Source: Cellulomonas sp. NS3
GTDB lineage: Bacteria > Actinomycetota > Actinomycetes > Actinomycetales > Cellulomonadaceae
NCBI RefSeq assembly: GCF_024757985.1
Contig: NZ_CP103289.1
Coordinates: 186,001 to 250,000 of the forward strand
Reading direction: 5' to 3'
DNA: 64,000 nt
The position numbers and the translations under genes were made by a program. The first letter of the stretch is position 1. Each line of letters begins with the position of its first letter. Of this stretch, positions 7,870-52,901 are shown one piece after another. The notes under the pieces are model-generated. The model saw nothing but the letters and a program-made list of their open reading frames with translations. It did not search any database and was not told where the DNA came from.

Positions 7870-7896
7870 CCAACGTTCCGGGCGCGTGGTGCGTTG
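7870..7896 (+). promoter_or_regulatory. ECF promoter of sigma/propeller pair A
   Basis: CCAAC (7870-7874) and CGTTG (7892-7896) are 17 nt apart, 39 nt before the sigma GTG at 7936. The same boxes with the same spacing occur upstream of the other two sigma genes in the window (49273-49299 and 52875-52901). The flank CCAACGTTCCGGGC is identical between pairs A and C. This is the expected form of an autoregulated ECF promoter. Confidence 0.75.
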
Positions 7897-7935
7897 GTGC
7901 TCTGTCATCTGTCGGGAACGGTCGGAGGGAATCTC

Positions 7936-8487
7936 GTGGCCCAGTGGGAGCAGCTGCTCGAGGAGGTCGTCCGCACACGCCGGATGGCGCTCATCGCGTA
8001 CGCGTGCCTGTTCACGCGTGACCGGGTGGAGGCGGAGGAGCTCGTCCAGGAGGCGGTCGTCCGCACGTTCTCCCGGGCCCGCACCTGGCCGGACGCCCGG
8101 TCGGCGGAGGCATACGTGCGCACGGCGATCAGGACGTCGTTCCTGGACGCGACCCGGCGCCGGCGGACGTGGCGGGACGCGTCCCACCTGTTCGCCGGGG
8201 ACCGCACCGGCCGTTCGCCCGACGAGACCGCCGCCACGGGGATCGACGTCCGCGCGGCGCTCGGCGACCTGCCCCCGCGGGAGCGGGCCTGCGTCGTCCT
8301 GCGGTACATCGACGACCGCACGGTCGCGGACATCGCCGCCGAGCTCAGCCTCAGCGACGGCGCCGTGAAGCGGTACCTGTCGGACGGCGCCCGCCGGCTG
8401 CGGTCCGCGCTCGGGGACGCCGTGCGGTGGCCCGACGACCCCGAGGTCATCCCCGTCACGACCCGAACCACGAGGAGCGCATCATGA
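7936..8487 (+). CDS. SigE-family ECF sigma factor (pair A)
   Basis: 183 residues with sigma region 2 (MALIAYACLFTRDRVEAEELVQEAVVRTF, split here at about residues 16-44, then AYVRTAIRTSFLD) and region 4 (LPPRERACVVLRYIDD, then LSLSDGAVKRYLSDG as HTH). The GTG at 7936 is chosen: GGAGGGA lies 5 nt upstream, its first residues align with the other two sigma paralogs (xxWxxxLEEVV), and an ATG-like codon at 7894 would fall on the -10 box. Its stop overlaps the ATG of the membrane beta-propeller gene (ATGA). It probably directs its own transcription from the CCAAC-N17-CGTTG promoter. Confidence 0.92.
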   Translation: MAQWEQLLEEVVRTRRMALIAYACLFTRDRVEAEELVQEAVVRTFSRARTWPDARSAEAYVRTAIRTSFLDATRRRRTWRDASHLFAGDRTGRSPDETAATGIDVRAALGDLPPRERACVVLRYIDDRTVADIAAELSLSDGAVKRYLSDGARRLRSALGDAVRWPDDPEVIPVTTRTTRSAS

Positions 8488-9935
8488 CCCCCGACCTGCG
8501 ATCCGCGCTCGAGGGCTTCGGCCACGAGGAGTCGCGCGGGTCCGACCTCTCGGCCGCCGGCCTCGACGCCGAGGTGCGGGCCCTGACCGCCCGGGTCCGC
8601 CGCCGCCGTGCGCTGCGGGCGACCGCGGCCGGCCTCGGCGCCGCCACCGTGATGGGTGTCGGCGCGCTCGGCGTCCAGGCCGCGGACCGGACCGACGAGG
8701 TCCCGGTCGACCCGCGCCCGTCCGTCACCCGCACGAGCCCCGCCCCGAGCCCGTCCGTGACCCGGACCGGTACCCCCGCGCCGACGCCGACGCCGACCTC
8801 CGAGGAGCCGGCGGTCCTCGGTGAGGTGACGGTGCACCCGCTGCTGCCGCCGGCGCAGCCGCTGCGAGCCGGGATGCTCGAGGCGGCCGGACCGGGCTGG
8901 CACCTCGTCACGGTCAGCGTCCCATGGGAGGTCGAGCCGGACGTCCCGGACGCGCCGCCACCGGTGCTGTACCTGGTGAGCCCCTCAGGTGACCGGTTCG
9001 AGGTGCCGACACCGGTCCCGCTCACGATCGACTCCGCCACCTGGGACGGCGGGACGGTCGAGGACTGGGCTCCCGGCTCGACGGCCGTGGTGACGTTCGT
9101 CTCGACGGGCGTGAGCCTGGGCGACACCCGGACCGGGTACCTCGCCGTCCGCGACCTGCTCAGCGGGGAGACGTTCGCCGAGATCCCGGTGCCGGAGACG
9201 GAGTGGGTGGGTGCGACCTTCGTGGGGGACGGCACCACCGACGTGCTCGTGACCCGGCGGGTCGCGTGGACCGAGGGGTACACCCAGGTCGACCGGGTGC
9301 AGCGGCTGACCCGGGACGGGGTCGAGGTGGGGGCGCTGGGGGCGATGCGGCAGAGCGCCCGGAGCGACGAGGCGTTCGTCCGCAGCCCGGACGGCTCGAC
9401 GCTCGTCCTCAACGACGCCGACGGTCTGCGGCTCGTCCGCACCCGTGACCTGGCGGTCATCGGCGACGTGACGGTTCCGTACCCGGACGCGCCCGGCGCG
9501 TGCGGGGTGTGGACCTGGTGGGACGACGACCGCGTGGTCCTGCGGTGCCAGCCGGACGGGCCGTCCCTGACCGGCGAGGCGGAGACGTCCGAGCTGTGGC
9601 TCGCGCCCGCGTCCGGGGACGCCCCGGCGCGACGTCTCGGTGACGCGCAGTCCTACGTCGGCGCCACCATGGTCGCCGGGCGCCTCGTCGTGCTGGGGAC
9701 GCCGTCGTGGACCGCCGTGGACGAGAGCGGCACCGTGACCACGCTGCCCTGGAGCAGCGACCTGTCGGCGCCGCTCCACGGGACGGCCGGCGATCGTGTG
9801 CACGTGCGCCGGTCCACCGCCGCGGGTGGGCAGGAGATCGTGTCGGTGGACCCGTTCACCGGGCAGGTGGCACAGCTCGTCCCGCCGGTCACGTCCCTCG
9901 ACCTCCGCGTCGCGCCGACGACGGCCAGGGGGTAA
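8484..9935 (+). CDS. Membrane-anchored beta-propeller-like protein, putative anti-sigma partner (pair A)
   Basis: 483 residues. A short cytosolic N-terminus ([12 protein letters not shown]) ends in an Arg-rich stretch; a single transmembrane helix follows at about 48-67, then a Pro/Thr/Ser linker (about 75-112), then a roughly 370-residue extracellular region of repeated beta-rich blade-like segments. No zinc anti-sigma motif (H-x3-C-x2-C) is visible. Translational coupling to the sigma gene (ATGA, GAGGAG ribosome-binding site) and the one-helix topology suggest a sensor/anti-sigma partner. This is inference supported by two paralogous pairs in the same window, whose N-termini share an M(S/T)P-x-L start. 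Confidence 0.75.
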
Positions 9936-9968
9936 GCCCCGCCTGACCCGCCGTCCGGGAGCGGCGCC

Positions 9969-9998
9969 CGCCGCCGGTCGTCCAGCACGCCGGCGGCG
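9969..9998 (+). terminator. Small hairpin after pair A
   Basis: CGCCGCCGG and CCGGCGGCG form a 9-bp stem with a 12-nt loop, just downstream of the propeller gene stop. No T-tract follows. It may act with the stronger hairpin at 10011-10053. Confidence 0.4.
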
Positions 9999-10010
9999 AG
10001 TGCCGCTCCA

Positions 10011-10053
10011 CCGACGCACCGGTCCCGGTCATCCGCTCCGACCGGTGCGTCGG
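10011..10053. terminator. Strong hairpin terminator upstream of the gcv leader
   Basis: A perfect 13-bp stem, CCGACGCACCGGT pairing with ACCGGTGCGTCGG around a 17-nt loop, lies between pair A and the glycine riboswitch. It would isolate the gcv leader from upstream transcription. As usual in high-GC actinobacteria there is no poly-T tail. Confidence 0.6.
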
Positions 10054-10160
10054 CGCCAGCGCCCCCCATCAGCCGTCGGTCGCAACCCGCGCCGCCCAGC
10101 GAGCCCCGTGCAGCGGTACGCTGAGCGCCGCAGTCCTCAACTGAACACGCTGCTCGAACC

Positions 10161-10432
10161 GTGGCGGGAGAGTCCTCCCGTCGTCGGCCCGGATCCCGCG
10201 AGGGGCCGAGCCGTCCGGGAGGCGCCGAAGGAGCAAGTCCCTCCCCGGGAAACTCTCAGGCCCCCGTACCGCCACGGCGAGGCAACTCTGGAAAGCGGCC
10301 ACCCGGCGACGGGCGGCCCACCGACGGTGCAAGCCGGCGCGCCCCGGGGTCCCGCTCACCGCGAGGCCCATGGCGGACCGGCAAAACTCTCAGGTCGCGT
10401 GCCCCCGGGCGCGCGGATGACAGAGCGGGGAG
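10161..10432 (+). ncRNA. Tandem glycine riboswitch upstream of gcvPTH
   Basis: Two aptamers are visible. The first (about 10161-10275) has GTGGCGGGAGAG, GCGCCGAAGGAGCAA, AACTCTCAGG and the closing ACCGCCAC. The second (about 10276-10432) has GGCAACTCTGGAAAG, CACCGACGGTGCAA, GGCAAAACTCTCAGGT and GACAGAGCGGGG. These are the classic glycine-riboswitch core blocks, and the tandem arrangement immediately precedes the glycine-cleavage operon. In known systems glycine binding turns expression on. The expression platform would lie between 10432 and the gcvP ribosome-binding site at 10470. Confidence 0.95.
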
Positions 10433-10479
10433 GCCACCCGTCCGTCCCGGTGCCCGCCGGACGACCCCCGGAGGCCCTC

Positions 10480-13400
10480 GTGACCGATCTCGACCAGACC
10501 GCCGTGACGCACCTCAGCGCCGACGAGCTGTCCCACCGCACCGACGCCGCGCGCGACTTCACGGACCGTCACGTCGGCCCGCGCACGTCACAGCTCGCGA
10601 CGATGCTCACGCAGCTCGGCTACGACTCGCTCGACGACCTCGTCGACGCCGCCGTCCCCGCCTCGATCCGCACGGACCGCCCGCTCGACCTGCCGGCGGC
10701 CCGCAGCGAGGCCGAGGTGCTCGCGGCCCTGCGCGCGATCGCCGCGAAGAACACCGTGATGACGCAGATGATCGGGCTCGGGTACTCCGACACGATCACG
10801 CCGCCGGTGATCCGCCGCAACGTCCTCGAGTCGCCGGCCTGGTACACCGCGTACACGCCGTACCAGCCGGAGATCTCGCAGGGCCGGCTCGAGGCGCTGC
10901 TCAACTTCCAGACCGTGATCGGCGACCTCACGGGCCTGCCGACGTCGAACGCGTCGCTGCTCGACGAGGCCACGGCCGTCGCGGAGGCGGTCGCGCTCAT
11001 GCGGCGCTCGGTCAAGGGCCGGCCCGAGGGTGTCGTGGTGCTGGACTCCGAGTGCCTGCCGCAGACGGTCGCGGTCACGCGGGGTCGCGCCGAGGCGATC
11101 GGGCTGCCGGTCGTGGTGGCGGACCTGAGCGCGGGCCTGCCCGACCTGGGCCCGGGCGGCCTCGTCGGCGTCGTGGTCCAGGCGCCCGGGGTCTCGGGCG
11201 TCGTGCGCGACCTGCGGCCGCTGATCGAGGCCGCGCACGCGGCGGGCGGGCTGGTCACGGTCGCCGCCGACCTGCTCGCGCTGACGATCCTCACGCCGCC
11301 GGGCGAGCTCGGTGCGGACATCGCCGTCGGCTCGGCGCAGCGGTTCGGCGTCCCGCTGTTCTACGGCGGGCCGCACGCCGCGTTCATGGCGGTGCGCTCG
11401 GGCCTCGAGCGGATGATCCCGGGCCGGCTCGTCGGGGTGTCGATCGACGCCGACGGCGCCCCCGCGTACCGGCTCGCGCTGCAGACGCGCGAGCAGCACA
11501 TCCGGCGCGAGAAGGCGACGAGCAACATCTGCACCGCGCAGGCGCTGCTCGCGATCACGGCCTCGATGTACGCCGTCTACCACGGGCCCGACGGGCTGCG
11601 GGCGATCGCCGAGCGGGTGCACGCGCGCGCGGTCGCGCTCGCCGACGGGCTGCGGGCGCACGGGGTCGCCGTCGCGCACGAGACGTTCTTCGACACCGTC
11701 CGGGCCGTCGTGCCGGGTCGCGCGCGGGCCGTCGTCCGCGCCGCTGCCGAGCGCGGGGTCAACCTGTGGGCGCCCGACGAGGACCACGTCCAGGCGGCGT
11801 GCGACGAGACGACGACGCGCGAGCACGTGCGCACGGTGCTGGCCGCCGTCGCCGAGGCGCTGGGGTCCGCCGCCGACGCCGAGCCGCGCCCCGACGAGGA
11901 CGCCGCCGGGCCCGCGACCAGTACCGACGTGCCGCTGGCGTCCGGTGACCTCCCCACGTGGGCCGTCCGCACGAGCGGCTACCTCACGCACCCCGTGTTT
12001 CACGTGAATCGTTCCGAGACCGCGATGATGCGCTACCTGCGCCGGCTCTCCGACAAGGATCTCGCGCTCGACCGCACGATGATCCCGCTGGGCTCCTGCA
12101 CCATGAAGCTCAACGCGACGGTCGAGATGGAGGCCATGACCTGGCCCGAGTTCGCGTCGATCCACCCGTACGTGCCGCGCGAGCAGGCGGCCGGGTACGC
12201 CGAGCTCATCGAGAGCCTGTCGACGTGGCTCGCGGAGATCACCGGCTACGCCGCGGTCTCGGTCCAGCCCAACGCCGGCTCGCAGGGCGAGTTCGCCGGG
12301 CTGCTCGCGATCCGCGAGTACCACGCGGCGAACCGCGCCGAGGGCGACGCCGTGCGCGACATCTGCCTGATCCCCGCGTCGGCGCACGGCACGAACGCGG
12401 CCTCCGCGGCGCTCGCGGGCATGCGCGTCGTCGTCGTCGCGACCGCCGAGGACGGCTCGGTCGAGCTCGACGACCTGCGCGCCAAGCTCGCGCAGCACGG
12501 CCCGCAGGTCGCGGCGATCATGATCACGTACCCGTCGACGCACGGCGTCTACGAGGAGGACGTGCGCACGGTCTGCGACCTCGTGCACGAGGCCGGCGGC
12601 CAGGTCTACATCGACGGGGCGAACCTCAACGCGCTCGTCGGGCTCGCGCGGCCCGGCGAGTTCGGCGGCGACGTCTCGCACCTCAACCTGCACAAGACGT
12701 TCTGCATCCCGCACGGCGGCGGTGGCCCCGGCGTCGGACCCATCGGCGTCGGCGCGCACCTCGTGCCGTTCCTGCCCGGGGACCCCGGCGCCGAGCACGG
12801 GTCAGACGCGCGGCCCACGGCTGCGGCGGACGGCTCGGGGGTCGCCGACGGCTCGGCGGCGCCCTCGTCGGGCAGCCCGTCCGCGGCCGCCTTCGCGTCG
12901 CCCGGCCTGCCCGGTCCCGGCGCGGCCGCCCCGGTCTCCGCGGCGCCGTTCGGGTCGGCCGGCATCCTGTCGATCTCCTGGGCGTACGTCGCGCTCATGG
13001 GCGGCGAGGGTCTGCGCCGCGCGACCGAGACCGCCGTGCTCAGCGCGAACTACCTCGCGTCGCGCCTCGCCCCGCACTTCCCCGTGCTCTACACCGGCCC
13101 GAACGGACTCGTCGCGCACGAGTGCATCCTCGACCTGCGCCAGATCACCAAGGACACGGGCGTCACGGCCGAGGACGTCGCGAAGCGGCTCATGGACTAC
13201 GGCTTCCACGCCCCGACGCTGTCGTTCCCCGTCGCGGGCACGCTCATGGTCGAGCCGACCGAGTCCGAGGACCTCGCCGAGCTCGACCGGTTCGTCGACG
13301 CGTTGGTGTCGATCCGCGGCGAGATCGACGCGGTCGGCGCCGGGCGCTGGCCGCTCACGGAGTCGCCGCTGCGGAACGCGCCGCACACGGCGGGCTCCGT

Positions 13401-13566
13401 CACGGCCGACGTCTGGGACAAGCCGTACGGGCGCGAGCTCGCGGCCTTCCCGCTCGCGAGCGTGCGCAGCGACAAGTACTGGCCGCCGGTGCGCCGGATC
13501 GACGGCGCGCACGGCGACCGCAACCTCGTCTGCACGTGCCCGCCGATCGAGGCGTACACCTCGTGA
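10480..13566 (+). CDS. gcvP: Glycine dehydrogenase (decarboxylating), P-protein
   Basis: PLP-dependent decarboxylase of the glycine cleavage system, passing the aminomethyl group to lipoyl-GcvH. The full-length fused form has 1,028 residues: the N-terminal GDC-P half begins near [13 protein letters not shown], and the C-terminal half carries the PLP lysine in [16 protein letters not shown] (Lys about 739). The GTG at 10480 has GGAGG five bases upstream and follows the glycine riboswitch. About 35-40 extra residues rich in Ala, Ser, Gly and Pro sit at about 769-818, before the conserved SAAPFGSA block; common P-proteins are about 950 residues. gcvT and gcvH follow. Confidence 0.97.
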
Positions 13567-13711
13567 CCCGGGCCTCCGGGTCCCGGCCGCTCCGGCTCGG
13601 CCGGCGCTCCGCCGTCACCACGGCGCCGTCCGCGACGCCCGCTCGTCCCGCCCTTCCCGTCGCGCGCGGCCCGCGTGGCGACGGCACCCTCGACCCGATC
13701 GGAGCCCGCCC

Positions 13712-14851
13712 GTGAGCGACGTCCTGTCCCCGCTGCACGACGAGCACGTCGCCCTCGGCGCCGCCCTGACCTCGTTCGCGGGGTGGCAGATGCCGCTGCG
13801 GTACACGAGCGACATCGCCGAGCACCAGGCGGTCCGCACGGCCGCGGGGCTGTTCGACCTCTCGCACATGGGCGAGCTCGAGGTCTCCGGCGCGGGGGCC
13901 GCCGCGGCGCTCGACCACGCGCTCGTCGGGGACCTCACGGCCCTCGCGCTGGGCCGGGCGCGCTACACGATGATCGTCCGCGAGGACGGCGGCGTGCTCG
14001 ACGACCTCGTGGTCTACCGGCTCGCCGAGGACCGGTTCCTCGTCGTCGCGAACGCCTCGAACGTCGCCGTGGTGCGCGACGCGCTGACCGAGCGCCTCGC
14101 CGGGTTCGACGCGACGCTGCACGACGCCTCGCTGACCACCGCGCTCATCGCCGTGCAGGGTCCGCGCGCCGAGGAGATCGTCACGTCCGCGGCCGAGCCC
14201 GTCGACGTGGACCCGATCCGCGAGCTGAAGTACTACGCCGCGGTCAACGCCACCGTCTCGGGCGTCCCGGCGCTCGTCGCCCGGACCGGCTACACGGGCG
14301 AGGACGGCTTCGAGCTGTTCGTCCCGGCCGAGGCCGCCGCCGAGCTCTGGCGCGACCTGCTCGCCGCCGGGGAGCCCCTCGGGCTCGTCCCCGCGGGCCT
14401 GTCCGCGCGCGACAGCCTGCGCCTCGAGGCCGGGATGCCGCTCTACGGGAACGAGCTCGACACCACGACCACGCCGTACGAGGCGGGTCTCGGCCGCGTG
14501 GTGAAGCTCGACAAGACCGGGCCCGACGGTACGCCGCTGCCCTTCGTCGGCCGCGCGGTGCTCGCGTCGCGCAAGGGTGCCCAGCCGGCGCGCGTGCTCG
14601 TCGGTCTGCGCGGGCTCGGCAAGCGGGCGGCGCGCCACGGGTACGACGTCGTGATGAGCACCGCGCCGGACGCCCCGGTGATCGGGCACGTGACGTCGGG
14701 AGCCCCGTCGCCGACGCTCGGCCACCCGATCGCGCTCGCGTACGTGACGCCCGAGATGTGCGGCGAGGGCCGCGAGCTCGCGGTCGACGTCCGCGGTCGC
14801 CGCGAGCCGGTGGTCGTCGTGCCCGTTCCCTTCTACCGTCGTCCTCGCTGA
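13712..14851 (+). CDS. gcvT: Aminomethyltransferase (T-protein)
   Basis: The 379-residue T-protein transfers the aminomethyl group from GcvH to tetrahydrofolate, releasing ammonia. Visible family blocks are the start [33 protein letters not shown], the folate-site [14 protein letters not shown] and [16 protein letters not shown]. The GTG at 13712 has GGAG upstream. It is second in the gcvPTH operon, 145 bp after gcvP; that gap holds no recognisable gene. Downstream come a 12-bp tandem repeat and then gcvH. Confidence 0.96.
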
Positions 14852-14897
14852 CCGACCGCTCGACCGACCGCTCGACCGACCGCTCGCGCGAGCGGTC
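14851..14897. repeat. Three 12-bp tandem repeats ending in a 20-bp perfect palindrome
   Basis: ACCGACCGCTCG occurs three times head-to-tail (14851-14886), starting in the gcvT stop codon. The last copy forms the left arm of the palindrome GACCGCTCGC-GCGAGCGGTC (14878-14897). As RNA the palindrome folds into a tight hairpin between gcvT and gcvH, which could attenuate or stabilise the transcript or reflect replication slippage. Confidence 0.7.
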
Positions 14898-14952
14898 GAC
14901 CCGACCGCCCCACGACCACCGGCGCCGCCGGCCGACCCGACAGGACACCTCC

Positions 14953-15336
14953 ATGAGCGCCTTCCCCGAGCACCTGCAGTACACGGTCGAGCACGAGTGG
15001 GTCGACACCCGCGCCGGCGCCGACGCGCCCGCGACCGTCGGCATCACCTCGACCGCGGCCGACGCGCTCGGCGACATCGTCTACGTCGAGCTCCCGGCGG
15101 TCGGCGAGGCGATCACCGCGGGCGCCGTGATCGGCGAGATCGAGTCCACGAAGTCGGTCTCCGAGCTGTTCTCGCCCGTCTCGGGCACGGTCGTCGAGGT
15201 CAACGAGGCGGTCGTCGAGACCCCCGAGCTCGTGAACTCGGACCCGTTCGGCGCCGGCTGGCTGCTCAAGGTCGAGGTCGCCGAGACGGGGCCCGTGCTG
15301 ACCTCCGAGGAGTACGCGGCGCAGGTCGCCGGCTGA
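14953..15336 (+). CDS. gcvH: Glycine cleavage H-protein
   Basis: The 127-residue lipoyl carrier of the glycine cleavage system has the lipoylation site ESTKSVSE (Lys about residue 64), YVELPAVGE upstream and the C-terminal [12 protein letters not shown] expected for the family. ATG at 14953 with AGGA upstream. Third gene of gcvPTH; no lipoate ligase, lipoate synthase or gcvL is adjacent, so lipoylation and the L-protein must be encoded elsewhere. Confidence 0.97.
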
Positions 15337-15662
15337 CCCGCGGGGGCGCGTGCCGCGGCGGTGTCCACGCCACCGCGCGCGCCCACCACGCGCCACCCGG
15401 CTCCGCGGGCTGCCCCGAAGGGCGGGGAACGTCCGCGACGGCTGGTCCGAACGGGTGAACCCGGTTCTCCCGGTGTCCTCCGTGTATCTCCGTGACCTGC
15501 ACGTTCACCTTCGAGTGTCGCCCCGAGCACGTGCCACGGCGACACCGGGGTGATTCGTGGGTGATTTCGGCGTCATATCGGCCGCGCCTGCCGATCTCAT
15601 CCGGTAACAGCCGCACGACACGGCGCCGGGTCACCGGACGCCGTCCGGACCCGGAGGACACC
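15337..15662. other. 326-bp gene-free region with an inverted repeat
   Basis: No convincing gene. It holds an 8-bp perfect inverted repeat, GTGTCGCC (15515-15522) with GGCGACAC (15538-15545), whose loop contains the palindrome GCACGTGC, and a lower-GC tract at about 15545-15610 just before the small LuxR-type gene. That tract is a plausible promoter/operator zone, but no clear -35/-10 pair stands out. Confidence 0.45.
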
Positions 15663-15899: not shown

Positions 15900-15953
15900 C
15901 CCGCAGCCACCCGCACCGCACGACCCGGGCGCCCACCCCGGACGCACCAGCCC

Positions 15954-15973
15954 GGCCGGACGCACGTCCGGCC
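15954..15973 (+). terminator. Hairpin after the LuxR-type gene
   Basis: GGCCGGAC-GCAC-GTCCGGCC is a perfect 8-bp stem with a tetraloop, 54 bp after the stop codon. A likely intrinsic-type terminator, though without a T-tract. Confidence 0.45.
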
Positions 15974-16284: not shown

Positions 16285-16357
16285 CCCGCGCGCACCCCGC
16301 CCGCCGCGCCCCCGCCACGTCACGCGCCCGACATGCATCACTGGCAGGATCGCCCGC

Positions 16358-16780: not shown

Positions 16781-16837
16781 CCGGCCGGCGCCGGTCGGCA
16801 CCGGTTCGGCGCAGTGCCCGCGCAGGCCCGGCAGCGT

Positions 16838-22479: not shown

Positions 22480-22576
22480 AACTCCATCGAACCTGGCGGA
22501 AGCACCCACACCCTCGTGAGAGGGGGGTTGCTGCGGCGTCGACGAGCCAGGACTCTCGGCCGCTCTGGATGGTGAG
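22480..22576 (-). ncRNA. S-box (SAM-I type) riboswitch upstream of metF
   Basis: Read on the minus strand: P1 strand CCATC, CAGAGCGGCCGAGAG, CCTGGCTCGTCGACGCCGC, AGCAACC, a short P3 hairpin (CCCTCTCACGAGGG), GGGTGCTTCCGCCAGG and the closing GATGG. This order (AGAG...GAGAG, GCAACC, GGTGCT...CC, P1 closure) follows the S-box/SAM-I core. The position ahead of metF-metE fits methionine control. It could be a SAM-IV-like variant of the same clan. A TATGCT box upstream (about 22581-22586, minus) may be the promoter -10. Confidence 0.8.
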
Positions 22577-45400: not shown

Positions 45401-47068
45401 CCCGAGCTCGGTGAGCAGCTGCACGCCGTCGCGCACCGAGCGCACGTCCGGGGGGTCCACGAACGGGAACTGCGCGATGTCGTCGGGCGTGGCTGCGACC
45501 CCCACGGAGATCATCTGGAGGATGACCGACGCGAGCGACGTGCGCAGGATCTCCGGCTCGGTGTACTCGGGGCGGGACTCGAAGTCGGCCTCGGAGTAGA
45601 GCCGGATCGCGATGCCGTCCGCGACGCGCCCGCACCGGCCCGAGCGCTGGTTCGCCGACGCCTGCGAGATCGGCTCGATGGGCAGGCGCTGGACCTTCGT
45701 GGCCTTGGAGTAGCGCGAGATGCGGGCCGTGCCGGGGTCGATCACGTACCGGATGCCCGGCACGGTCAGCGACGTCTCGGCGACGTTGGTCGCGAGCACG
45801 ACGCGGCGCGTGCCGTGCTGCTCGAACACCCGGTGCTGCTCGGCCGCGGAGAGCCGCCCGTACAGCGGCAGGATCTCGACCGCCGACGGGCCGCGCAGGT
45901 CCGCCGCCCGGTCGCCCAGGTGCGCGCGCAGCGCGTCCTCCGCGTCGCGGATCTCCCGCTCGCCCGAGAAGAACACGAGGATGTCGCCCGGGCCCTCGGC
46001 GGCGAGCTCGTCGACCGCCTCGCAGATCGCCTGCATCAGGTCGCGGTCCTCGACCTGCGCGCGGCCGGGGCCCTTGCCCTTGCTCGGCGACCCGGCACCC
46101 TTCCCCGGGCGGCCCTTCGGGTACGCGCGCCCGGTCAGCGCCGCACCGTCCGGCCCGGTGCCGTCGTCGTCCCACCCGTCCCCGTCGGCCGCGGGCAGCG
46201 CGTCGTCCGCGCGCAGCGGCCGGTACCGGATCTCGACCGGGAAGGTGCGGCCCGTGACCTCGACGACCGGCGCCGGGACGCCGTCGGGGTGCTCGGGCGT
46301 CGGCGGACCCGCGAAGTGCGCCGCGAACCGCGCCGAGTCGATCGTCGCCGACGTGATGACGAGCTTGAGGTCCGGCCGCTGCGGCAGGAGCCGCGTGAGG
46401 TAGCCGAGCAGGAAGTCGATGTTGAGCGAGCGCTCGTGGGCCTCGTCGATGATGAGCGTGTCGTAGCCGCGCAGCATCGGGTCGCGCTGGATCTGCGCGA
46501 GCAGGATCCCGTCCGTCATGACCTTGACCAGCGTCGACGCGCTCGACTCGTCGGTGAACCGCACCTGGTACCCCACGAGGTCCCCGAGCGGGACGCCCGG
46601 GCCGCTGATCTCCTCGTTGATCCGCTCCGCGACCGTGCGCGCCGCGATCCGCCGGGGCTGCGTGTGGCCGATCTGCCCGTCCCGGCCCCGGCCGAGCTCG
46701 AGCATGATCTTGGGGAGCTGCGTCGTCTTCCCCGAGCCCGTCTCGCCCGCGACGATCACGACCTGGTGCTCGCGGATCGCCGCGGAGATCTCGTCGCGGC
46801 GCGCCGAGACCGGGAGCTGCTCGGGGTACGTGATCGGGGGGACGACGACGGCGTGGCGCAGCTCGGCGCGGCGGGCGCGCTGGGCGTCGCCCTGCTTCGG
46901 GTCGGGCCGGCGGTCGGGCCGACGCTCGCGCTGAGGACGACTGCTCTCGTCGGTGCGGTGCTCCGCGTCGGGACGACGCGGCCCGCGACGACGACCGCGC
47001 CCGCCCCGACGGCCCGGTGCCCCGGTCCCGTCCGGCGTCGCCGGTCGCTCCTCGCGCGCAGTGCTCAC
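42467..47068 (-). CDS. hrpA: ATP-dependent helicase HrpA (DEAH box)
   Basis: A very large DExH RNA helicase (1,533 residues from the GTG at 47068). N-terminal Arg/Asp/Pro-rich extension (1-70), then Walker A GETGSGKTT (about 108-116), DEAHERS, SATID, a long helicase C-terminal core ending in the QRSGRCGRVADG motif, HA2/ratchet and OB-fold regions, and the C-terminal DUF3418 typical of bacterial HrpA. A Gly/Lys/Pro-rich insert (DGTGPDGAALTGRAYPKG and following) separates the two RecA lobes. Enteric HrpA resolves stalled or collided ribosomes; the same is inferred here. An upstream GTG at 47101 would add 11 residues. Confidence 0.95.
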   Translation of the reverse strand: MSTAREERPATPDGTGAPGRRGGRGRRRGPRRPDAEHRTDESSRPQRERRPDRRPDPKQGDAQRARRAELRHAVVVPPITYPEQLPVSARRDEISAAIREHQVVIVAGETGSGKTTQLPKIMLELGRGRDGQIGHTQPRRIAARTVAERINEEISGPGVPLGDLVGYQVRFTDESSASTLVKVMTDGILLAQIQRDPMLRGYDTLIIDEAHERSLNIDFLLGYLTRLLPQRPDLKLVITSATIDSARFAAHFAGPPTPEHPDGVPAPVVEVTGRTFPVEIRYRPLRADDALPAADGDGWDDDGTGPDGAALTGRAYPKGRPGKGAGSPSKGKGPGRAQVEDRDLMQAICEAVDELAAEGPGDILVFFSGEREIRDAEDALRAHLGDRAADLRGPSAVEILPLYGRLSAAEQHRVFEQHGTRRVVLATNVAETSLTVPGIRYVIDPGTARISRYSKATKVQRLPIEPISQASANQRSGRCGRVADGIAIRLYSEADFESRPEYTEPEILRTSLASVILQMISVGVAATPDDIAQFPFVDPPDVRSVRDGVQLLTELGALAPTGGALTETGRALAQLPMDPRLGRMIVEAGRRGVAREVMIIAAALSIQDPRERPVESRPQADQQHARFADPTSDFLTYLNLWQYLKDAQADLSGSAFRRLCRSEHLNYLRIREWQDVVTQLRELAKPLGIVVNPPRRREKAGSVGVALAGAQAEKEPRRRTAPGAEQTVLASDTEGGPEKLRLDWDADRIHLSLLAGLLSQIGMQEATEVTPPAGNRGRKDSPARRPDRRARNEYLGARGARFAIFPGSGLAKRPPAWVMAGELVETSRLWGRDVARIQPEWAEELAGHLVKRTYSEPTWSTKQGAAMALERVLLYGVPIVAQRRVLYAKVDPEHARELFLRHALVDGEWTTHHEFFHENRRLLAEAESLEARARRRGLVVDDDVLFAFYDERVPADVVSARHFDTWWKTARRTQPDLLTFTRELLVSDEDAVSASDFPSTWPQGELELPLTYQFEPGTEADGVTAHVPLVLLARVRPEGFGWMVPGLLEELVTATIRSLPKPVRVQLVPAPDVARGVVAWFRENLASWHDTVRAADLAPSFHDAFAQAVRALRDVDVPLDAFDDEKLPPHLRMTFRVQSDRGVVLDESKDLVALQRRLAARTQDAVSSAVRTAVRDAMREAGTKAGARGRDDATATAAPAAAAPAAPDAGTAPTSPAAARGAADPAVAAAIPERTGLTAWPADLPDDALPLTVETTGAGGLRVRGYPALVEEPSGTVGLRVLADAGAQVEAHRRGLRAVLLRETSLATARVTTRWTGTQALTLAASPYRSTDALVADVQRAAVDHLLAEHLAGRPATEVRTGTAYAALRTHVRERLEDTVHRVVADVVAALTAARELDADVRGSSSLALLATLQDVREQAARLVFDGFVSATGVTRLVHLPRYLRAARRRLEKAAENPQRDADLAWQVHDLAEAWDQAVRRAAGSSPDPARDASLADVRWMLEELRVSLFAQQLGTPQPVSVKRIRTALASTA

Positions 47069-47152
47069 GACGGACCATTCTCCCCGCTGCCGCGGGTGCA
47101 CCGCGCGTTGATTCCCCGCAGGCGTCCGCGCACGCCTCCGCGGCCGGTCAGC

Positions 47153-47183
47153 CCTCGGCCGCCCGTTGCCCGGACGGCCGAGG
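47153..47183 (-). terminator. Hairpin downstream of sigma/propeller pair B
   Basis: CCTCGGCCG (47153-47161) and CGGCCGAGG (47175-47183) form a perfect 9-bp stem with a 13-nt loop, only 6 bp past the leftward stop at 47190. Likely terminator, without T-tract. Confidence 0.5.
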
Positions 47184-47189
47184 CTCGCG

Positions 47190-48656
47190 TCACCAGGCGT
47201 AGAGCTGAACCGCGCGCGGCCCGGAGACCGCGAGGTGCCGCGGCATGACCGACGTCCCGACGATCGAGCCCGCCGGAGCCGGGAGGGACCAGACCGTCGA
47301 GCCGTCCGCGAGCGCGAGGGCGACGAGCTCCTGCCTGTCGTGGTGGTGCACGAGCACCCGCTCGCCGTCCGTCGCGACGACGGTCCCCGCGTCGGTCGAC
47401 CAGCGCACCGCTCCGGTCGCGAGGTCGAGCGCGGACACTCCCGCCGCGTCCTCGACGAGCACCGTGTCGCCGACGAGCCCCTCGACGCGCGTGGCGCCCG
47501 CCTCCCACAGGACGGTCTCGTCCCGCGGGTCGTGAGCGGCGAGCGCGCTCATCCCGCCGTCGGCCGACGTCGTCACCGGGACGAGCCGGGGGACGACGGC
47601 GCCCGGTGCGACGGACCACACGGCGGGATCCCGCCCGACGCCCAGGTCCTGCGGGCCCGTCGTCGAGCGCTCGCCCGTCGCGGTGTCGATGACCGCGCTG
47701 TAGGTGAACCCCGCGAGCCGGGCGTGCGTGCCCTGGACCTGCGTCTGGGCGAACACGTCGCCGTAGACCGGCTCGTCGCTCGCCGCCCCCGGCTCGACGT
47801 GCGACCACACCGTCCGCCCGGTCACGGCGTCGAGGCCGTCCCAGCGCGCGGTCGTCGGCTCGGGCTTGCCGTGCACCACGACGGTGTCCCCCGCGAGGCC
47901 CGTGGAGACGACCCAGGGCTCGACCGGCAGTGTCCGCACGACCGTCCCGTCCTGCGGGTCCAGGAGCTGGAGCTCCGGCTCGTCCTCGGCGGACGAGCCC
48001 AGGCACACCACGAGCCCCTCGGAGCTCGTCCCGGAGCACGTCCAGGTCGTCGGGCGCTCGACGCCCTGCCGCTGCACCCACCGGACGGCGCCGGTGACGG
48101 CGTCGATCCCGGTCAGGGCGTTCTGCCCGTCCTCGGCGGTGACGAACGTCACGAGGACGTCGCCTGCGTCGACGGCCTCGAAGTCGCCGTACCAGGACCC
48201 GTCGCGCACGTCGACGAACGTCGTCGGCTGACCGCCCGCCGGGTCCGGCAGTACGTCGCCCGCGGTGAGCGACCACAGTGCGCGGGGCGGCTGGGCGAGC
48301 GACCCGACGACGCCCCACCCGGCGGGCTGCTCGGGCGTGGCGGTGGCGGTCGGCGTCGGTGTCGTGGTCGCGCTCGCGCTCGCGGTGGGCGTGGGCGTGG
48401 GCGTCGCGGTGGCGGTCGGCACCGGGTCGACCGCGGGGTCCCGCGGTGCGGGCGTCAGGGCGGTCGCCGTGGCGATGCCGACGGCGAGGACCGTCACGGC
48501 GACGGCCGAGATCGCGCCGGTGCGGCGTGCGCGGAGGGTGCGGATGTCGGTCATGACGTGGCGGACCTCGGTGCTGGTGTCGGGCGCGGTCGCGGCGGCG
48601 GCGGCGGTCTCGGTGCCGGCGAGCTCGTGCAGGAGGTCGCGCAGGTTCGGGCTCAT
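47190..48656 (-). CDS. Membrane-anchored PQQ-like beta-propeller, putative anti-sigma partner (pair B)
   Basis: 488 residues. The cytosolic N-terminus (MSPNLRDLLHELAG) leads to a single transmembrane helix (about 50-70), then a Thr/Pro/Ser linker of TPTPT-type repeats (about 78-110), then a PQQ-like beta-propeller (about 118-485) with repeated blade motifs such as GIDAVTGAVRWV, GLDAVTGRTVWS and ALDLATGAVRWS. Overlaps the sigma gene by ATGA. The cytosolic segment is presumed to bind the sigma factor; no zinc anti-sigma motif is present. Paralogous to the proteins at 8484 and 50869. Confidence 0.8.
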   Translation of the reverse strand: MSPNLRDLLHELAGTETAAAAATAPDTSTEVRHVMTDIRTLRARRTGAISAVAVTVLAVGIATATALTPAPRDPAVDPVPTATATPTPTPTASASATTTPTPTATATPEQPAGWGVVGSLAQPPRALWSLTAGDVLPDPAGGQPTTFVDVRDGSWYGDFEAVDAGDVLVTFVTAEDGQNALTGIDAVTGAVRWVQRQGVERPTTWTCSGTSSEGLVVCLGSSAEDEPELQLLDPQDGTVVRTLPVEPWVVSTGLAGDTVVVHGKPEPTTARWDGLDAVTGRTVWSHVEPGAASDEPVYGDVFAQTQVQGTHARLAGFTYSAVIDTATGERSTTGPQDLGVGRDPAVWSVAPGAVVPRLVPVTTSADGGMSALAAHDPRDETVLWEAGATRVEGLVGDTVLVEDAAGVSALDLATGAVRWSTDAGTVVATDGERVLVHHHDRQELVALALADGSTVWSLPAPAGSIVGTSVMPRHLAVSGPRAVQLYAW

Positions 48657-49204
48657 GCCTGGCTCCGTCCGGTGCGGGTCACGGGGATCGTGTCGAGGTC
48701 GGCGTCCGGCGGCAGCGCGTCGGGCCCCAGGAGGACCCGCAGCCGCGCGGTCGCGTCGGACAGGTAGCGCTTGACCGCGCCGGGGCTCAGCCCGAGCGCG
48801 TCCGCGATCTCCGCGCCCGGCAGGTCGTCGAAGTAGCGCAGGACGGCGCAGGCCCGCTCGCGCGGCGCCAGCGTCGCGAGCGCCGCCCGCACGTCGAGGA
48901 CGGCCGTCGTCGCGTGCTCGGGCGACGCGACGTCGTCCGTCACCGCGAACAGGTGCGCCCTCGACCGCCACGTGCGCTGCTTGCGGGCGTGGTCCAGGAA
49001 CGTCGTCCGGATCACCTGGCGCACGTAGCCCTCGGCGGTGTGCACGTCGGTCAGGTCGCGCGGCTTCGCGAAGGTCCGCACGAGCGCGTCGTGCACCAGG
49101 TCCTCGGCGAGCGACCGGTCGACCGTGAACAGCGCGGCGTAGCCGACCAGCGAGCTCCGGCGGTCACGGACCACCTCCTCGAGCACGTCCTGCCAGTCCG
49201 GCAC
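48653..49204 (-). CDS. SigE-family ECF sigma factor (pair B)
   Basis: 183 residues; starts MPDWQDVLEEVVRDRRSSLV. Region 2 has LFTVDRSLAEDLVHDALVRT and GYVRQVIRTTFLDHARK; region 4 has LAPRERACAVLRYFDDL and LGLSPGAVKRYLSDA. GTG at 49204 with AGGAGGGG upstream. The CCAAC-N17-CGTTG promoter (49273-49299, minus) lies 68 nt upstream. Co-translated with the propeller protein through ATGA. Confidence 0.93.
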   Translation of the reverse strand: MPDWQDVLEEVVRDRRSSLVGYAALFTVDRSLAEDLVHDALVRTFAKPRDLTDVHTAEGYVRQVIRTTFLDHARKQRTWRSRAHLFAVTDDVASPEHATTAVLDVRAALATLAPRERACAVLRYFDDLPGAEIADALGLSPGAVKRYLSDATARLRVLLGPDALPPDADLDTIPVTRTGRSQA

Positions 49205-49579
49205 GGCCGCCCCTCCTGTCCTCGCGCCGGGCCGTCACCGGCTGGTGACCGCTCCGTGCACCCTCACCCCCACAACGCGCGCCGGGGCGGGGAAGTTGGG
49301 GTGCGGCCGCCGCCGGACCTCACCACCTGCGGGGAACCCACGTGGAGGAGATCCCGCCGCTGCCGACGGCGACGCGGGACACGGTCGAGGTGGCGCCGGA
49401 CTCGACGTCCACGCAGACGAGATCCTGACGGTGCGGTCACCGGGAGAGTGACACCTGCGGACGCACCCCGACAAAGGGACTGGGCCGACCGGGCGTCGCA
49501 CCGCGGGACGCCTGCACCGGCCGGGCACCGGTCCGATCAGGAGGTCGACACCCCGCACCGCCCCGCGCAAGGACTCCCC
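49205..49579. other. 375-bp divergent intergenic region, sigma B / GH26
   Basis: Apart from the sigma promoter (49273-49299, minus strand), no gene or clear rightward promoter was recognised. The stretch just before the GH26 start has an AAGGA ribosome-binding site (about 49569-49573). No CebR-type TGGGAGCGCTCCCA box is present. Confidence 0.5.
49273..49299 (-). promoter_or_regulatory. ECF promoter of pair B
   Basis: On the minus strand CCAAC and CGTTG are separated by exactly 17 nt, as in pairs A and C. The upstream flank ACCCCAACTTCC matches pair C (ACCCCAACGTTCC) with one base missing. The conservation between paralogous loci argues for autoregulation. Confidence 0.72.
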
Positions 49580-50728
49580 GTGCCGTTCCTCCGTCTCGCC
49601 ACCGCCGCCGCCCTCGTGGCCGTCCTCGCGGTGGCCACCGCGCCGTACGGCCCGCACGACGGCGCCATCCCGGACCCTGAGTCCCCTGCGGCGTCGGACT
49701 CCACGCTGCGCGTCCCGCTCCACGCCCGCGTGGAGCTCGCGGTCGGCCGCACCTCCCCGGGCGCGTCGGCCACGACGTCCACCGCGTCCGGCACGTCGAC
49801 GAAGGTGCAGGGTGGCAAGGTGAAGCCGACGCCCACCCCCACGCCGACGCCGACCCCCACCCCCACCTCCGGCTCGAGCACCGCGTGGGCCGTCCCGGTC
49901 GGGGTCACGATCCCGTGGGGGCCGGTGGACGCCGGGCGCCTCGCCGAGACCACCGCGATCCTGCGGCACGTCCCCGCCTACCTCGAGTGGTACACCGGCT
50001 TCGGGGAGGCGCCCGACGTCGCGAAGCTCCAGGCCGTGACCGACGCGGGCGCCGTCCCCGTCGTCACGTGGGAGCCGTGGGTGTGGACCGACGGCGTGAA
50101 CCAGCCCGCGTACGCGCTCGACCGCGTCACGGCCGGCGACTTCGACGCGTACCTCGTGCAGTGGGCCGACGCGCTCGCGGCCTGGGACCGCCCGGTGATG
50201 ATGCGGTTCGCGCACGAGATGAACGGCGACTGGTACCCCTGGTCCGCCGGGGTCAACGGCAACTCCGCCGCCGACTACGTCGACGCGTGGCGGCACGTGC
50301 ACGACGTGTTCGCCGCGCGCGGGGCCGACGAGGTGCAGTGGGTCTGGGCGCCCAACGTGGTCTACCCCGGCTCGACGCCGCTCACGTCGCTGTACCCCGG
50401 TGACGCGTACGTCGACGTCCTCGGGGTCGACGGCTACAACTGGGGCACCTCGGTCTCCTGGGGCACGTGGGTCTCCGGCCGGCAGGTGTTCGAGCAGACG
50501 TTCGCCGAGCTGCGCGTGCTCGCGCCGTCGAAGCCGCTGCTCGTGACCGAGACCGCGTCGAGCGAGCTCGGCGGCTCGAAGGCCGCGTGGGTCGACGACC
50601 TGATCACGTGGTCGGCGGGCCAGGGCCTGCTCGGGGTCATCTGGTTCGACGAGAACAAGGAGACCGACTGGCGCATGGCGAGCTCGCCGGAGTCCGCGGC
50701 GGCGTTCGCGGCGGCGCTGTACCGCTGA
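49580..50728 (+). CDS. Secreted GH26 beta-mannanase-like glycoside hydrolase
   Basis: 382 residues: signal peptide or N-terminal hydrophobic segment (1-24), Ser/Thr-rich region, a Thr-Pro linker (about 80-95), then a (beta/alpha)8 GH26 domain. Acid/base Glu is in MMRFAHEMNGDWYPW (about 213-227) and the nucleophile Glu in LLVTETASSE (about 320). GH26 enzymes hydrolyse beta-mannan or related mixed-linkage glucans; substrate is inferred. GTG at 49580 with AAGGA upstream. It sits between two inward-facing sigma/propeller pairs, which may or may not control it. Confidence 0.9.
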   Translation: MPFLRLATAAALVAVLAVATAPYGPHDGAIPDPESPAASDSTLRVPLHARVELAVGRTSPGASATTSTASGTSTKVQGGKVKPTPTPTPTPTPTPTSGSSTAWAVPVGVTIPWGPVDAGRLAETTAILRHVPAYLEWYTGFGEAPDVAKLQAVTDAGAVPVVTWEPWVWTDGVNQPAYALDRVTAGDFDAYLVQWADALAAWDRPVMMRFAHEMNGDWYPWSAGVNGNSAADYVDAWRHVHDVFAARGADEVQWVWAPNVVYPGSTPLTSLYPGDAYVDVLGVDGYNWGTSVSWGTWVSGRQVFEQTFAELRVLAPSKPLLVTETASSELGGSKAAWVDDLITWSAGQGLLGVIWFDENKETDWRMASSPESAAAFAAALYR

Positions 50729-50868
50729 CCGGACGCCATCGAGCCGGAGCGCAGCCACGGGACGCCGCCCCGCCGAGGGACCGTAGGGCGTCGGGAGGAC
50801 CCGGAAGGTGCGCGGGTGCAACGTCCTTCTCCGCCGTGCGCACCGCGGTGCCGGAACGCACCGGCGGG

Positions 50869-52278
50869 TCAGGGCGTCAACGCCGTGAGGCGTCCGCCGT
50901 CGTGCTCGAGCAGGATCCGGTCGCCGGCGAGGACGACGTCGCGCGCGTCGACCGGGAGGGTCCAGGTCGTCTGCCCGGTCGACGTGTCGACGGCGCTCAG
51001 CATCGTGTACCGGCGGTCGGTGTCCTGGTGCGCGAGCACCACCCGCTGCCCGTCGAAGGCCACGACCTCGACCGGGCCGCCGCCGCTGCCGTCCGCCACG
51101 GACCACCGGATCGCACCCGTGCGCTCGTCGTGAGCGAACACCGCGCCGCCGTCGACCCGCAGCACCGTCCCTGGGACGATCGCCGCCGGCCTGCCGGCTG
51201 TGAGCTCCCACAGCGGTGCCCCGTCCTGGGCGTCGTGGACGACGACCGGCCCCGTGGCGTCGTGCACGAGCCGCACGCCGGTGCCCGGTCGAGCGACCCA
51301 CACGTCGAGGACCCGGCCGAGGTCGAGCCCGAGCGCGTCCGAGACCTCCTCACCGGTCCGCACGTCGAGCGCACGCGGATCACCGTCGTCCCCGATCAGG
51401 GCGAAGCCACCGTCGACGCCCACCGAGACGGTCGACGTGTGGGTGACCGGCGCCTTCCCGGCTTCGACCCACAGCTGCTCGCCGGTGCCCGTCGAGACGC
51501 CCGTCACCCGCTCGACGCCCGCGTCGTCGAACCCGCGCAGGATCGCGACGTCGCCCGCCACCACGAGGGAGTGGACCGGAAAGCCCGTCGCCACCTCCCG
51601 GGTCACCCGGCCGTCCGCGAGGTCCACCACCTGCAGCACCGGACCGGCGCCGGCCGTGGACCCGACGCACACGAGCTGCCCCGCGCTGTCGACGCCTCCG
51701 CACGCGTGCGTCCCCGGCTCGTCCCGCTCCTCGACCAGGTCCGTCGACCAGCGGCGGACGCCCGACCCGGCGTCCACCCCGACGACGTGGACGGGGCCCG
51801 TGCCGTCGCCCAGCACGAGCACGGTCGTGCCGCCCGCCCCGAAGGCGACCCGACCGAGGTACGGCGAGCCGCCCATCGACGGGATCCGGGGCGGGTTCGC
51901 CGGGTCCGACCCGGGCACGAGGTCCACGGACGACATCGTCCAGGCGATCGAGGGCTCCTGCGGGTGCGGGGCCACCCGTCCCCGGGTCAGCCCGGGAGCG
52001 GTCGGCGCCGGGGTCGCCGGCGGGGTCGGTGCGGCGCTCGCGGTGCCGTCCGGCCCCGCGGGCGTCGGTGCGGTCGGCTCGCGCAGCAACGTCGAGGCGG
52101 TCACCGCGAGCGCGACCGCGGCCGCCGACGCGGTGAGCGTCACCGCGAGCCGCCGTCGTCCGGCGCGGCGAGCCTCGGTGAGGACCGCACGCAACTCGGC
52201 GGACCCGTCGTGCGTGACGGCGGCGACGTGCGACTCGCTGCGCGCGAGGTCGGTGAGCAGGTCGCTCAGCGGGCTCAT
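50869..52278 (-). CDS. Membrane-anchored PQQ-like beta-propeller, putative anti-sigma partner (pair C)
   Basis: 469 residues. Cytosolic N-terminus (MSPLSDLLTDLARSESH), one transmembrane helix (about 43-62), a Pro/Ala/Thr linker, then a PQQ-like propeller (about 105-465) with blades such as GVDAGSGVRRWS, GVSTGTGEQLWV and AVDTSTGQTTWTL. ATGA overlap with the sigma stop. No zinc anti-sigma motif. Paralog of the 8484 and 47190 genes and closer to the latter by propeller type. Confidence 0.8.
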   Translation of the reverse strand: MSPLSDLLTDLARSESHVAAVTHDGSAELRAVLTEARRAGRRRLAVTLTASAAAVALAVTASTLLREPTAPTPAGPDGTASAAPTPPATPAPTAPGLTRGRVAPHPQEPSIAWTMSSVDLVPGSDPANPPRIPSMGGSPYLGRVAFGAGGTTVLVLGDGTGPVHVVGVDAGSGVRRWSTDLVEERDEPGTHACGGVDSAGQLVCVGSTAGAGPVLQVVDLADGRVTREVATGFPVHSLVVAGDVAILRGFDDAGVERVTGVSTGTGEQLWVEAGKAPVTHTSTVSVGVDGGFALIGDDGDPRALDVRTGEEVSDALGLDLGRVLDVWVARPGTGVRLVHDATGPVVVHDAQDGAPLWELTAGRPAAIVPGTVLRVDGGAVFAHDERTGAIRWSVADGSGGGPVEVVAFDGQRVVLAHQDTDRRYTMLSAVDTSTGQTTWTLPVDARDVVLAGDRILLEHDGGRLTALTP

Positions 52279-52829
52279 CGGTCGGTCCTCCCGGTGGGGC
52301 TGATCGTCAGGAAGGTCGTGGCGGCCGGCACCTCGTCGCCGGCGTCCGGCCCCAGTGCGGCCCGCAGCTTCGCGGTCCCGTCGGACAGGTACCGCTTCAC
52401 CGCGCCCGTGCTCAGGCCGAGCTCGGCGGCGACGTCGGCGACGGTGAGGTCGTCGACGTGGCGCAGCACCACGCACGCGCGCTCCCGCGGCGACAGCTCC
52501 GCGAGCGCCGCCCGCACGTCGAGCCCCGCGGTGACGGCGCGCTCGGGTGACGGGACGTCGCGGGCGTCCGCGAGCAGGTGCAGCCTCGCCCGCCAGGACG
52601 TCTGCCGGCGTGCCGAGTCGAGGAACAGCGTGCGGATCACCTGGCGCACGTAGCCCTCGGCGGTGTGCACGTCGGTCAGCGTGCGCGCCCGGCCCGCGGT
52701 GCGCACGAGCGCGTCGTGCACGAGGTCCTCGGCGCGCGAGCGGTCCGCGGTGAACAGGTACGCGTACCCGACGAGCGCCGGCCGCCGCTCCTGCACGACC
52801 TCCGCCAGGACGTCCTGCCAGCGGTTCAC
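52275..52829 (-). CDS. SigE-family ECF sigma factor (pair C)
   Basis: 184 residues; starts MNRWQDVLAEVVQERRPALV from the GTG at 52829 with AGGAG upstream. Region 2: YLFTADRSRAEDLVHDALVR, then GYVRQVIRTLFLDSAR. Region 4: LSPRERACVVLRHVDDL, then LGLSTGAVKRYLSDG. Very similar to sigma B through region 2 (GYVRQVIRTxFLD). Its promoter lies 45 nt upstream (52875-52901). Confidence 0.93.
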   Translation of the reverse strand: MNRWQDVLAEVVQERRPALVGYAYLFTADRSRAEDLVHDALVRTAGRARTLTDVHTAEGYVRQVIRTLFLDSARRQTSWRARLHLLADARDVPSPERAVTAGLDVRAALAELSPRERACVVLRHVDDLTVADVAAELGLSTGAVKRYLSDGTAKLRAALGPDAGDEVPAATTFLTISPTGRTDR

Positions 52830-52874
52830 GCGGGTCTCCTGGGCGGGGCGGGGCGTCGTGGGCTCACACAGCCT

Positions 52875-52901
52875 CAACGAGGGAGGAGCCCGGAACGTTG
52901 G
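52875..52901 (-). promoter_or_regulatory. ECF promoter of pair C
   Basis: CCAAC-N17-CGTTG on the minus strand. The surrounding CCCAACGTTCCGGGC is identical to the pair A promoter flank. Third instance of the motif in 64 kb, each upstream of a SigE-family gene. Confidence 0.75.

Follow-up and report, generated by a model that had tools for sequence, protein, structure and literature searches.

Do sigma factor genes that lie behind one and the same pair of promoter boxes form separate, self-regulated signalling modules, and which other genes follow these boxes? The question is raised by a 64,000-nucleotide (nt) window of Cellulomonas sp. NS3 (NZ_CP103289.1, forward strand), which is the whole stretch of DNA analyzed and corresponds to positions 186001–250000 of the single 4.78-Mb contig. 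An earlier note on this DNA had pointed out three gene pairs, hereafter A, B and C, each comprising a gene for an extracytoplasmic function (ECF) sigma factor and a gene for a membrane protein behind the motif CCAAC-N17-CGTTG, and had taken them for a small family of autoregulated signalling modules. Judging from the sequences of the window, of the genome and of its relatives, the pairs are very probably positively autoregulated transmembrane sigma/anti-sigma modules using the promoter CCAAC-N17-CGTN. The proposal is refined in three respects: more than three pairs belong to the family, the CGTTG of the window is a local variant of a more general CGTN, and outer domains other than propellers occur as well.

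Gene pairs and promoter sites in the window

The motif was found before all three sigma genes by exact match, with 0.01 matches expected from shuffled sequence. Promoter A, conserved in relatives, is located at 7870–7896 of the plus strand, with the −35 box CCAAC at 7870–7874, a 17-nt spacer and the −10 box CGTT(G) at 7892–7896. Promoter B (CCAACTTCCCCGCCCCGGCGCGCGTTG; CCAACTTCCTCGCCCCGGCGCGCGTTG in the ortholog from the related genome G001) is located at 49273–49299, and promoter C (CCAACGTTCCGGGCTCCTCCCTCGTTG; G001 ortholog CCAACGTTCCGGGCACCTGACTCGTTG) at 52875–52901, both on the minus strand. The distances from the box to the GTG start codons at positions 7936, 49204 and 52829 are 39 (A), 68 (B) and 45 nt (C), in agreement with those given earlier. 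The longer stretch common to A and C is CCAACGTTCCGGGC; these two sites have 14 bases in common, and the bases outside the core are CCAACTTCC in B and CCAACGTTCC in A and C. Site A is a 6-bp inverted repeat, readable on both strands, and the sole further match to CCAAC-N17-CGTTG in the window is this palindromic site on the opposite strand. The transcription start of A is predicted approximately 7–10 nt past CGTT, near position 7904.

Sigma A (7936..8487, plus strand, 183 amino acids (aa)), sigma B (48653..49204, minus strand, 183 aa) and sigma C (52275..52829, minus strand, 184 aa), all with a GTG start, were identified as ECF sigma factors by Pfam and NCBIfam. Regions 2 and 4 are represented by Pfam Sigma70_r2 and r4_2, both above their cut-offs in all three proteins, and the general ECF model TIGR02937 scores 66–68 bits at a cut-off of 42.9; sigmas A, B and C have the domain composition of ECF (group IV) sigma factors, as well as an AAC/CGT promoter before their own operon. 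Their earlier assignment to the ‘SigE family’ stands in part: TIGR02983 (SigE-fam_strep) is the best subfamily model for all three, but the scores (112.3, 114.2 and 117.3 bits) do not reach its curated cut-off of 141.55. Sigma A shares 54% identity with sigma B and 56% with sigma C. The recognition helix of sigma A carries the signature GAVKRYL, and the helices of the paralogues encoded in the genome have GxVKRYL in common. On a quick tree, A, B, C and three of these paralogues belong to a clade of 13 rows with branch support 89, all promoters of which end in CGTT.

As had been described, the stop codon of each sigma gene overlaps the start codon of the partner gene (ATGA) in all three pairs. 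Near the tail end of sigmas A and B (8460–8487; 48653–48680), Arg-Ser codons coincide with a Shine–Dalgarno-like GGAGC, and these codons may be constrained as DNA for the overlapping gene, not as protein. Putative anti-sigma A is encoded at 8484..9935 (plus strand), putative anti-sigma B at 47190..48656 and putative anti-sigma C at 50869..52278 (both minus strand). All three contain an N-terminal stub of about 45 residues with an Arg-rich end, a hydrophobic helix and a Pro/Thr linker before the outer domain; the hydrophobic maximum begins at residue 46 (A), 49 (B) or 44 (C), and the linker that follows, recognized by reading the sequence, is rich in Pro, Thr and Ala. The stubs fall, by length only, within the mark of short (class II-like) anti-sigma factors, a segment of less than about 50 aa before the membrane helix (PMC7406223). 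The extracytoplasmic propeller expected from the earlier reading is represented in B and C by PQQ/BamB-type domains (Pfam PQQ_2, 2.8e-14 and 2.4e-14). No Pfam match was found for partner A, the propeller of which is suggested by predicted structure: its model (mean predicted local distance difference test, pLDDT, 73.7) has WD40, prolyl-endopeptidase and TolB propellers as the closest folds, with modest template modelling (TM) scores (0.30–0.46 by query). The model of partner C (mean pLDDT 70.8) is closest to BamB (Foldseek E 1e-15).

Conservation of the boxes and of the module architecture

For comparison, one genome per species was scanned; at least 389 relatives were confirmed, and the best 80 loci were used, originating from Cellulomonas, Demequina, Actinotalea, Oerskovia, Cellulosimicrobium, Promicromonospora, Sanguibacter and others. 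Together with 25 loci of the genus they gave 105 loci, reduced to 99 distinct sigmas by removal of six rows, namely, L163 (144 aa), L133 (607 aa, wrong start), L135 (cut by the contig end) and the duplicates L071, L062 and L061. Boxes were counted in the 160 nt before the sigma gene. CAAC-N17/18-CGT is present there in 93 of the 99 sigmas, while the shuffled controls gave a mean of 1.8 (largest value 7), reversed sequence 3, and equal stretches inside the sigma genes 1. A chance origin of the boxes is ruled out by these controls; equal frequency in shuffled or coding sequence, named in the earlier note as grounds for rejecting the motif, was not found. The last base of the −10 box at a spacer of 17 is C in 50 rows, T in 27, A in 6 and G in 3, and seven rows have a spacer of 18.

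The 80 loci, all from other genomes, gave the same boxes when all spaced 4-mer pairs before the sigma gene were enumerated: CAAC-N17-CGTC ranked first (45/80, 0.19 expected), CAAC-N17-CGTT occurred in 19/80 (0.08 expected), and one or the other was present in 64/80. The strict form CCAACGWTT-N13-CGTY has 38 matches in the 26 genomes holding family loci and none in the reversed control; 29 of the 38 precede a family sigma match by 29–85 nt. Both boxes and their spacing are retained across several families, in contrast to the diverged spacers and flanks. In G001, module C is followed by a GH26-like gene, the extra module L155 and module B, in this order, and L155 is absent from the window. The gene between modules B and C in the window, at 49580–50728 on the plus strand, encodes a glycoside hydrolase of family GH26 (Pfam 4.3e-14).

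A profile built from seven sigmas of Cellulomonas sp. NS3 has eight matches in the genome at E ≤ 1e-30, namely, those of modules A, B and C, of four further intact ones and of a remnant, and CAAC-N17-CGT is located upstream of all eight. The remnant (L163/L050, genome 960381–960710, minus strand) belongs to an eighth module: its promoter is kept, region 2 of the sigma runs toward the sensor part, and region 4, the stub and the helix are missing. It is a deletion product of a module. Sigmas of the TIGR02983 type have 31 matches in the genome, and the counts cover the 30 with a locus. A box within 160 nt is present in 7/7 intact KRYL-type sigmas versus 1/22 others; among the 23 loci without an intact KRYL-type sigma it was found in two, the remnant and L031. 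The view of the pairs as members of a family of autoregulated modules is supported by this association within the genome, together with the boxes of the 93 relatives.

Genome-wide scanning for CCAAC-N16-18-CGTT, as the earlier note had suggested, gave 35 matches versus 6 in the reversed control: 24 with N16, one with N18 and 10 rows (8 places) with N17. Five of the eight N17 places precede family sigmas, two precede orphan sensor-domain genes and one precedes an ABC-transporter-like gene. The N16 matches look coding by sequence composition: of the 19 for which a locus was available, 17 are in reading frames with a marked G+C excess at third positions, and 14 of the 19 are in one codon phase. 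The same, crude measure exceeds its mark in 5/10 N17 rows, with mixed phases; on its own it is not sufficient to rule out a coding origin of these rows, and the case for N17 is therefore based on conservation. The site before the ABC-transporter-like ATP-binding gene (L022:1501-1526, genome 2078879, minus strand) lacks the usual G after CCAAC and may be a chance occurrence.

Gene overlap, hydrophobicity and purines were counted with L143, L144, L145 and L101 left out. The partner start overlaps the sigma stop (offset −1) in 72/95 rows, and the most hydrophobic stretch begins at residue 30–65 in 88/91 scored partners. The Pfam scan covered 80 partner proteins, 73 from the 80 related loci and seven from the genome itself; the other seven related loci were cut, had an unreadable frame or had no downstream open reading frame. 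Few matches were obtained, namely, PQQ_2 (4), YceG (4), Thioredoxin_4, DSBA, DUF5324 and Tcp10_C (1 each), and in many relatives the outer domains are of other than TolB/propeller type or unrecognized. The stub recurs across relatives while the outer domains vary, and the seven intact modules of the genome likewise keep one promoter type and have different outer domains. Retention of stub and helix with varying outer domains is the anatomy of a membrane anti-sigma factor with exchangeable sensors.

Start point and genes behind the boxes outside the modules

Among the nine strict-form matches other than these 29 upstream ones are four Demequina sites with an ATG exactly 8 nt past CGTC, and all four ATGs open lipoprotein-like genes. 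The search for CCAAC-N17-CGTY-N8-ATG gave 46 matches in 33 genomes, 44 of them in 18 Demequina and 2 in 15 others, and 2 in the reversed control. The number of genomes is probably 32, as G001 and G025 are apparently the same genome: all ten sigma matches of G001 are found again, with the same coordinates, in G025, to which the Cellulomonas cellasea locus L061 belongs. The 44 Demequina matches comprise 18 before genes of a DUF4349 lipoprotein, 11 before a YPACGNE lipoprotein, 3 before a serpin lipoprotein, 6 before family sigmas and 6 unassigned ones, one of which opens only a 35-codon frame. Before family sigmas the ATG is probably incidental; in the two translated it opens only a short frame.

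Each of the 18 Demequina genomes contains one boxed DUF4349 gene, 15 of which were translated and three inferred from the same promoter end; DUF4349 was assigned by Pfam on two genes and YPACGNE by coordinates. The YPACGNE lipoprotein was found at 17 loci in 16/18 Demequina genomes. Fifteen of these loci are boxed, including one spacer-18 and one ACAAC site, and 13 have the exact distance (box and distance counts leave out L254, the second piece of the L240 gene). In Demequina, the family promoter precedes genes of leaderless serpin lipoproteins at L269, L280 and L282, the assignment of L280 being by Pfam. The fixed distance between box and ATG in the leaderless genes suggests that transcription starts at the ninth base after CGTN, within the 5–10 nt past the box that had been expected.

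On the Cellulomonas side, the DUF4349 gene is present in 11/12 non-Demequina genomes with a box within 650 nt in 0/11, by which it is rejected as a Cellulomonas target; presence without a box looks like rewiring of the regulon. The YPACGNE lipoprotein was not found in seven genomes of the genus. Two strong sites of the genome not preceding a sigma gene, both with 0 mismatches to CCAACGNTCCG-N11-CGTTG, lead into orphan sensor domains. One (L001:1501-2415, genome 92119, plus strand) precedes the gene of an orphan exported sensor protein, which is related to the sensor of the L035 module (phmmer E 1.6e-35) but lacks its stub; in G001 the relative of this gene is broken across two reading frames. 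At the other (L173, genome 918254, minus strand) the box stands directly before a Pro/Thr linker and a sensor domain, without helix or stub, and the domain is related to the sensors of L063, L162 and L132 (E 2.8e-10 to 1.5e-7). Orphans of this kind may be modules in decay or may function as decoys. In G001 a similar site precedes a secreted S8-type protease, as judged by reading the sequence. A role of the S8-like protease as a target common to Cellulomonas was rejected: its closest homologue detected in the genome of strain NS3 is only 40% identical, and no box is present at that locus.

Other elements annotated in the window are a glycine riboswitch (Rfam RF00504, 55.4 bits) at 10155–10281 on the plus strand, just downstream of module A, and an S-adenosylmethionine (SAM) riboswitch (Rfam RF00162, 52 bits) at 22481–22575 on the minus strand.

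Proposed mode of action, alternatives and significance

According to the favoured explanation, the sigma factor and the membrane anti-sigma factor are probably translated from one message. The short cytoplasmic N-terminus, with its Arg-rich end, would hold the sigma at the membrane, and the outer domain would act as a sensor, a signal there freeing the sigma, perhaps by proteolysis or conformational change. The freed sigma would take RNA polymerase to CCAAC-N17-CGTN, first of all before its own operon, with each sigma presumably using only its own promoter; the outcome would be positive feedback with built-in re-sequestration.

Several observations weigh against this explanation. The box is missing in 6/99 rows, and an opposite-strand match is present in 21/99, as the boxes are partly complementary. 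Outside the family, a box is also located within 160 nt of sigma L031, and CAAC-N17-CGTC lies 173 nt from sigma L032. If ECF promoters in general have AAC/CGT boxes (PMC8103513), a link between box and sigma subtype that is strong but not exclusive is to be expected. No known anti-sigma domain was detected in the stub, either by Pfam and NCBIfam at E 0.01 in partners A, B and C or by Pfam in the 80 scanned partners. In the sigma promoters, purines are most frequent 4, 7 and 10 bases after CGTN, with no peak at base 9; a purine at the predicted +1 is rejected as a mark of these promoters, and their exact start is uncertain. Finally, covariation of the last −10 base with the sigma is weak once phylogeny is considered (six C/T changes): compared with labels simulated on the tree, p is 0.077 at the four contact columns selected beforehand, 0.042 at loop L3 and 0.020 at the stretch that follows. 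Columns 52 and 55, which correspond by ungapped mapping to the SigH residues R73 and T76 (PMC6411747), are top in plain mutual information; the effect is weak against the tree, and direct reading of the last −10 base by loop L3 is not claimed. Covariation of this base with the specificity loop is suggestive at best.

The alternatives differ in what they ask of the boxes. It is possible, if doubtful, that one dominant sigma, or several paralogues interchangeably, reads the shared box, which would make a single cross-activating network and not separate self-switches. The clade uniting A, B and C with three paralogues on CGTT promoters, their GxVKRYL recognition helices, and the same box before two orphan sensor genes and the G001 protease gene are in favour of such a network, while the differing bases outside the core in B versus A and C, and the 54% and 56% identity of sigmas B and C to A, speak against it. 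There is very little likelihood that the two boxes together make up a dyad operator (CAACG...CGTTG), each serving as a half-site for some other regulator, be it a repressor or an activator. Such an operator would fit the complementarity of CAAC and GTTG, the inverted repeat at site A and the opposite-strand matches in 21/99 upstream regions. However, the left box stays CAAC, while the right one is mostly CGTC, CGTA or CGTG (50, 6 and 3 versus 27 CGTT); this variation of the last base breaks the symmetry and speaks against a symmetrical operator, as does the fixed 8 nt to the ATGs of leaderless genes, and with the right half not kept in most relatives the dyad was ruled out.

Almost no weight is given to the view that the identity of the three sites is a functionless relic of recent duplication, suggested by the 14 bases common to A and C and by the tandem modules of G001 (C, GH26, the extra module, B); the boxes and their spacing persist over several families and 93/99 diverse sigmas, with spacers and flanks diverged. 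By this conservation CCAAC-N17-CGTTG is a promoter, neither chance nor an operator. The membrane proteins could also be exported products, e.g., binding proteins, co-transcribed with a sigma they do not regulate, as the stub matches no known anti-sigma family and two of the outer domains also occur in orphan exported proteins. This is improbable, since stub and helix are retained while the outer domains vary, the genes overlap in 72/95 rows, and the TolB-type protein of Thermoanaerobacter tengcongensis is a proven precedent. Transmembrane sigma/anti-sigma modules remain the preferred explanation. A broader extension of it is speculative and rather unlikely: a network of many inputs and one promoter with exchanged outer domains, in which the orphans at 92119 and 918254 would be ligand-binding decoys damping the response and the small, conserved leaderless set with a serpin, driven in Demequina by the same family, would suggest envelope surveillance of extracellular proteolysis.

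Thermoanaerobacter tengcongensis is a Firmicute. The closest precedent is its RpoE1/TolB pair (TTE0322): RpoE1, an ECF sigma that uses the −10 box CGTC, is autoregulated, and its anti-sigma factor was shown to be a TolB-type protein whose cytoplasmic end is 39 residues long (PMC3397946). Similar to the modules described here, the ECF sigma gene directly precedes that of a partner with one predicted membrane helix, and in T. tengcongensis the 39-residue end binds the sigma (PMC3397946). In contrast, RpoE1/TolB is a single pair with the promoter tGTTAC-N16-CGTC, i.e., −35 GTTAC instead of CCAAC and a spacer of 16, and its genes are 2 bp apart instead of overlapping by ATGA; a leaderless lipoprotein regulon, found here in Demequina, is not mentioned for it in the accessible portion of the source (PMC3397946). 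Several paralogous membrane anti-sigma factors per genome, sensing different substrates, are also known from the nine RsgI proteins of Clostridium thermocellum; that set differs in serving cellulosome genes and in being released by RseP cleavage (PMC12203970), and no RsgI-named family was among the Pfam matches of the 80 scanned partners. Canonical ECF/anti-sigma pairs share with the modules an AAC −35 box, a CGT −10 box, a sigma of sigma2 and sigma4 only, a co-transcribed putative anti-sigma and proposed positive autoregulation (PMC8103513). Unlike in these pairs, the partner here has no recognized anti-sigma domain, and the last −10 base is C, T, A or G within one family. Among the titles and abstract openings listed from the open-access literature searched, none describes this sigma/sensor family, and no experimental paper on it was found there.

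Accordingly, the modules are a known kind of system. What the comparison adds to it is a promoter found throughout the family, the last −10 base of which varies, together with a start point, a conserved regulon of leaderless lipoprotein genes in Demequina, and the orphan sensors. With its promoter recognized, its start site predicted and a first regulon outlined, the family can be tested with a few reporters. With one −35 box, a −10 box ending in any of four bases, and varied sensors, it offers a test bed for insulation versus cross-wiring of duplicated sigmas, and the leaderless DUF4349, serpin and YPACGNE lipoproteins are the candidate output of the modules in Demequina.

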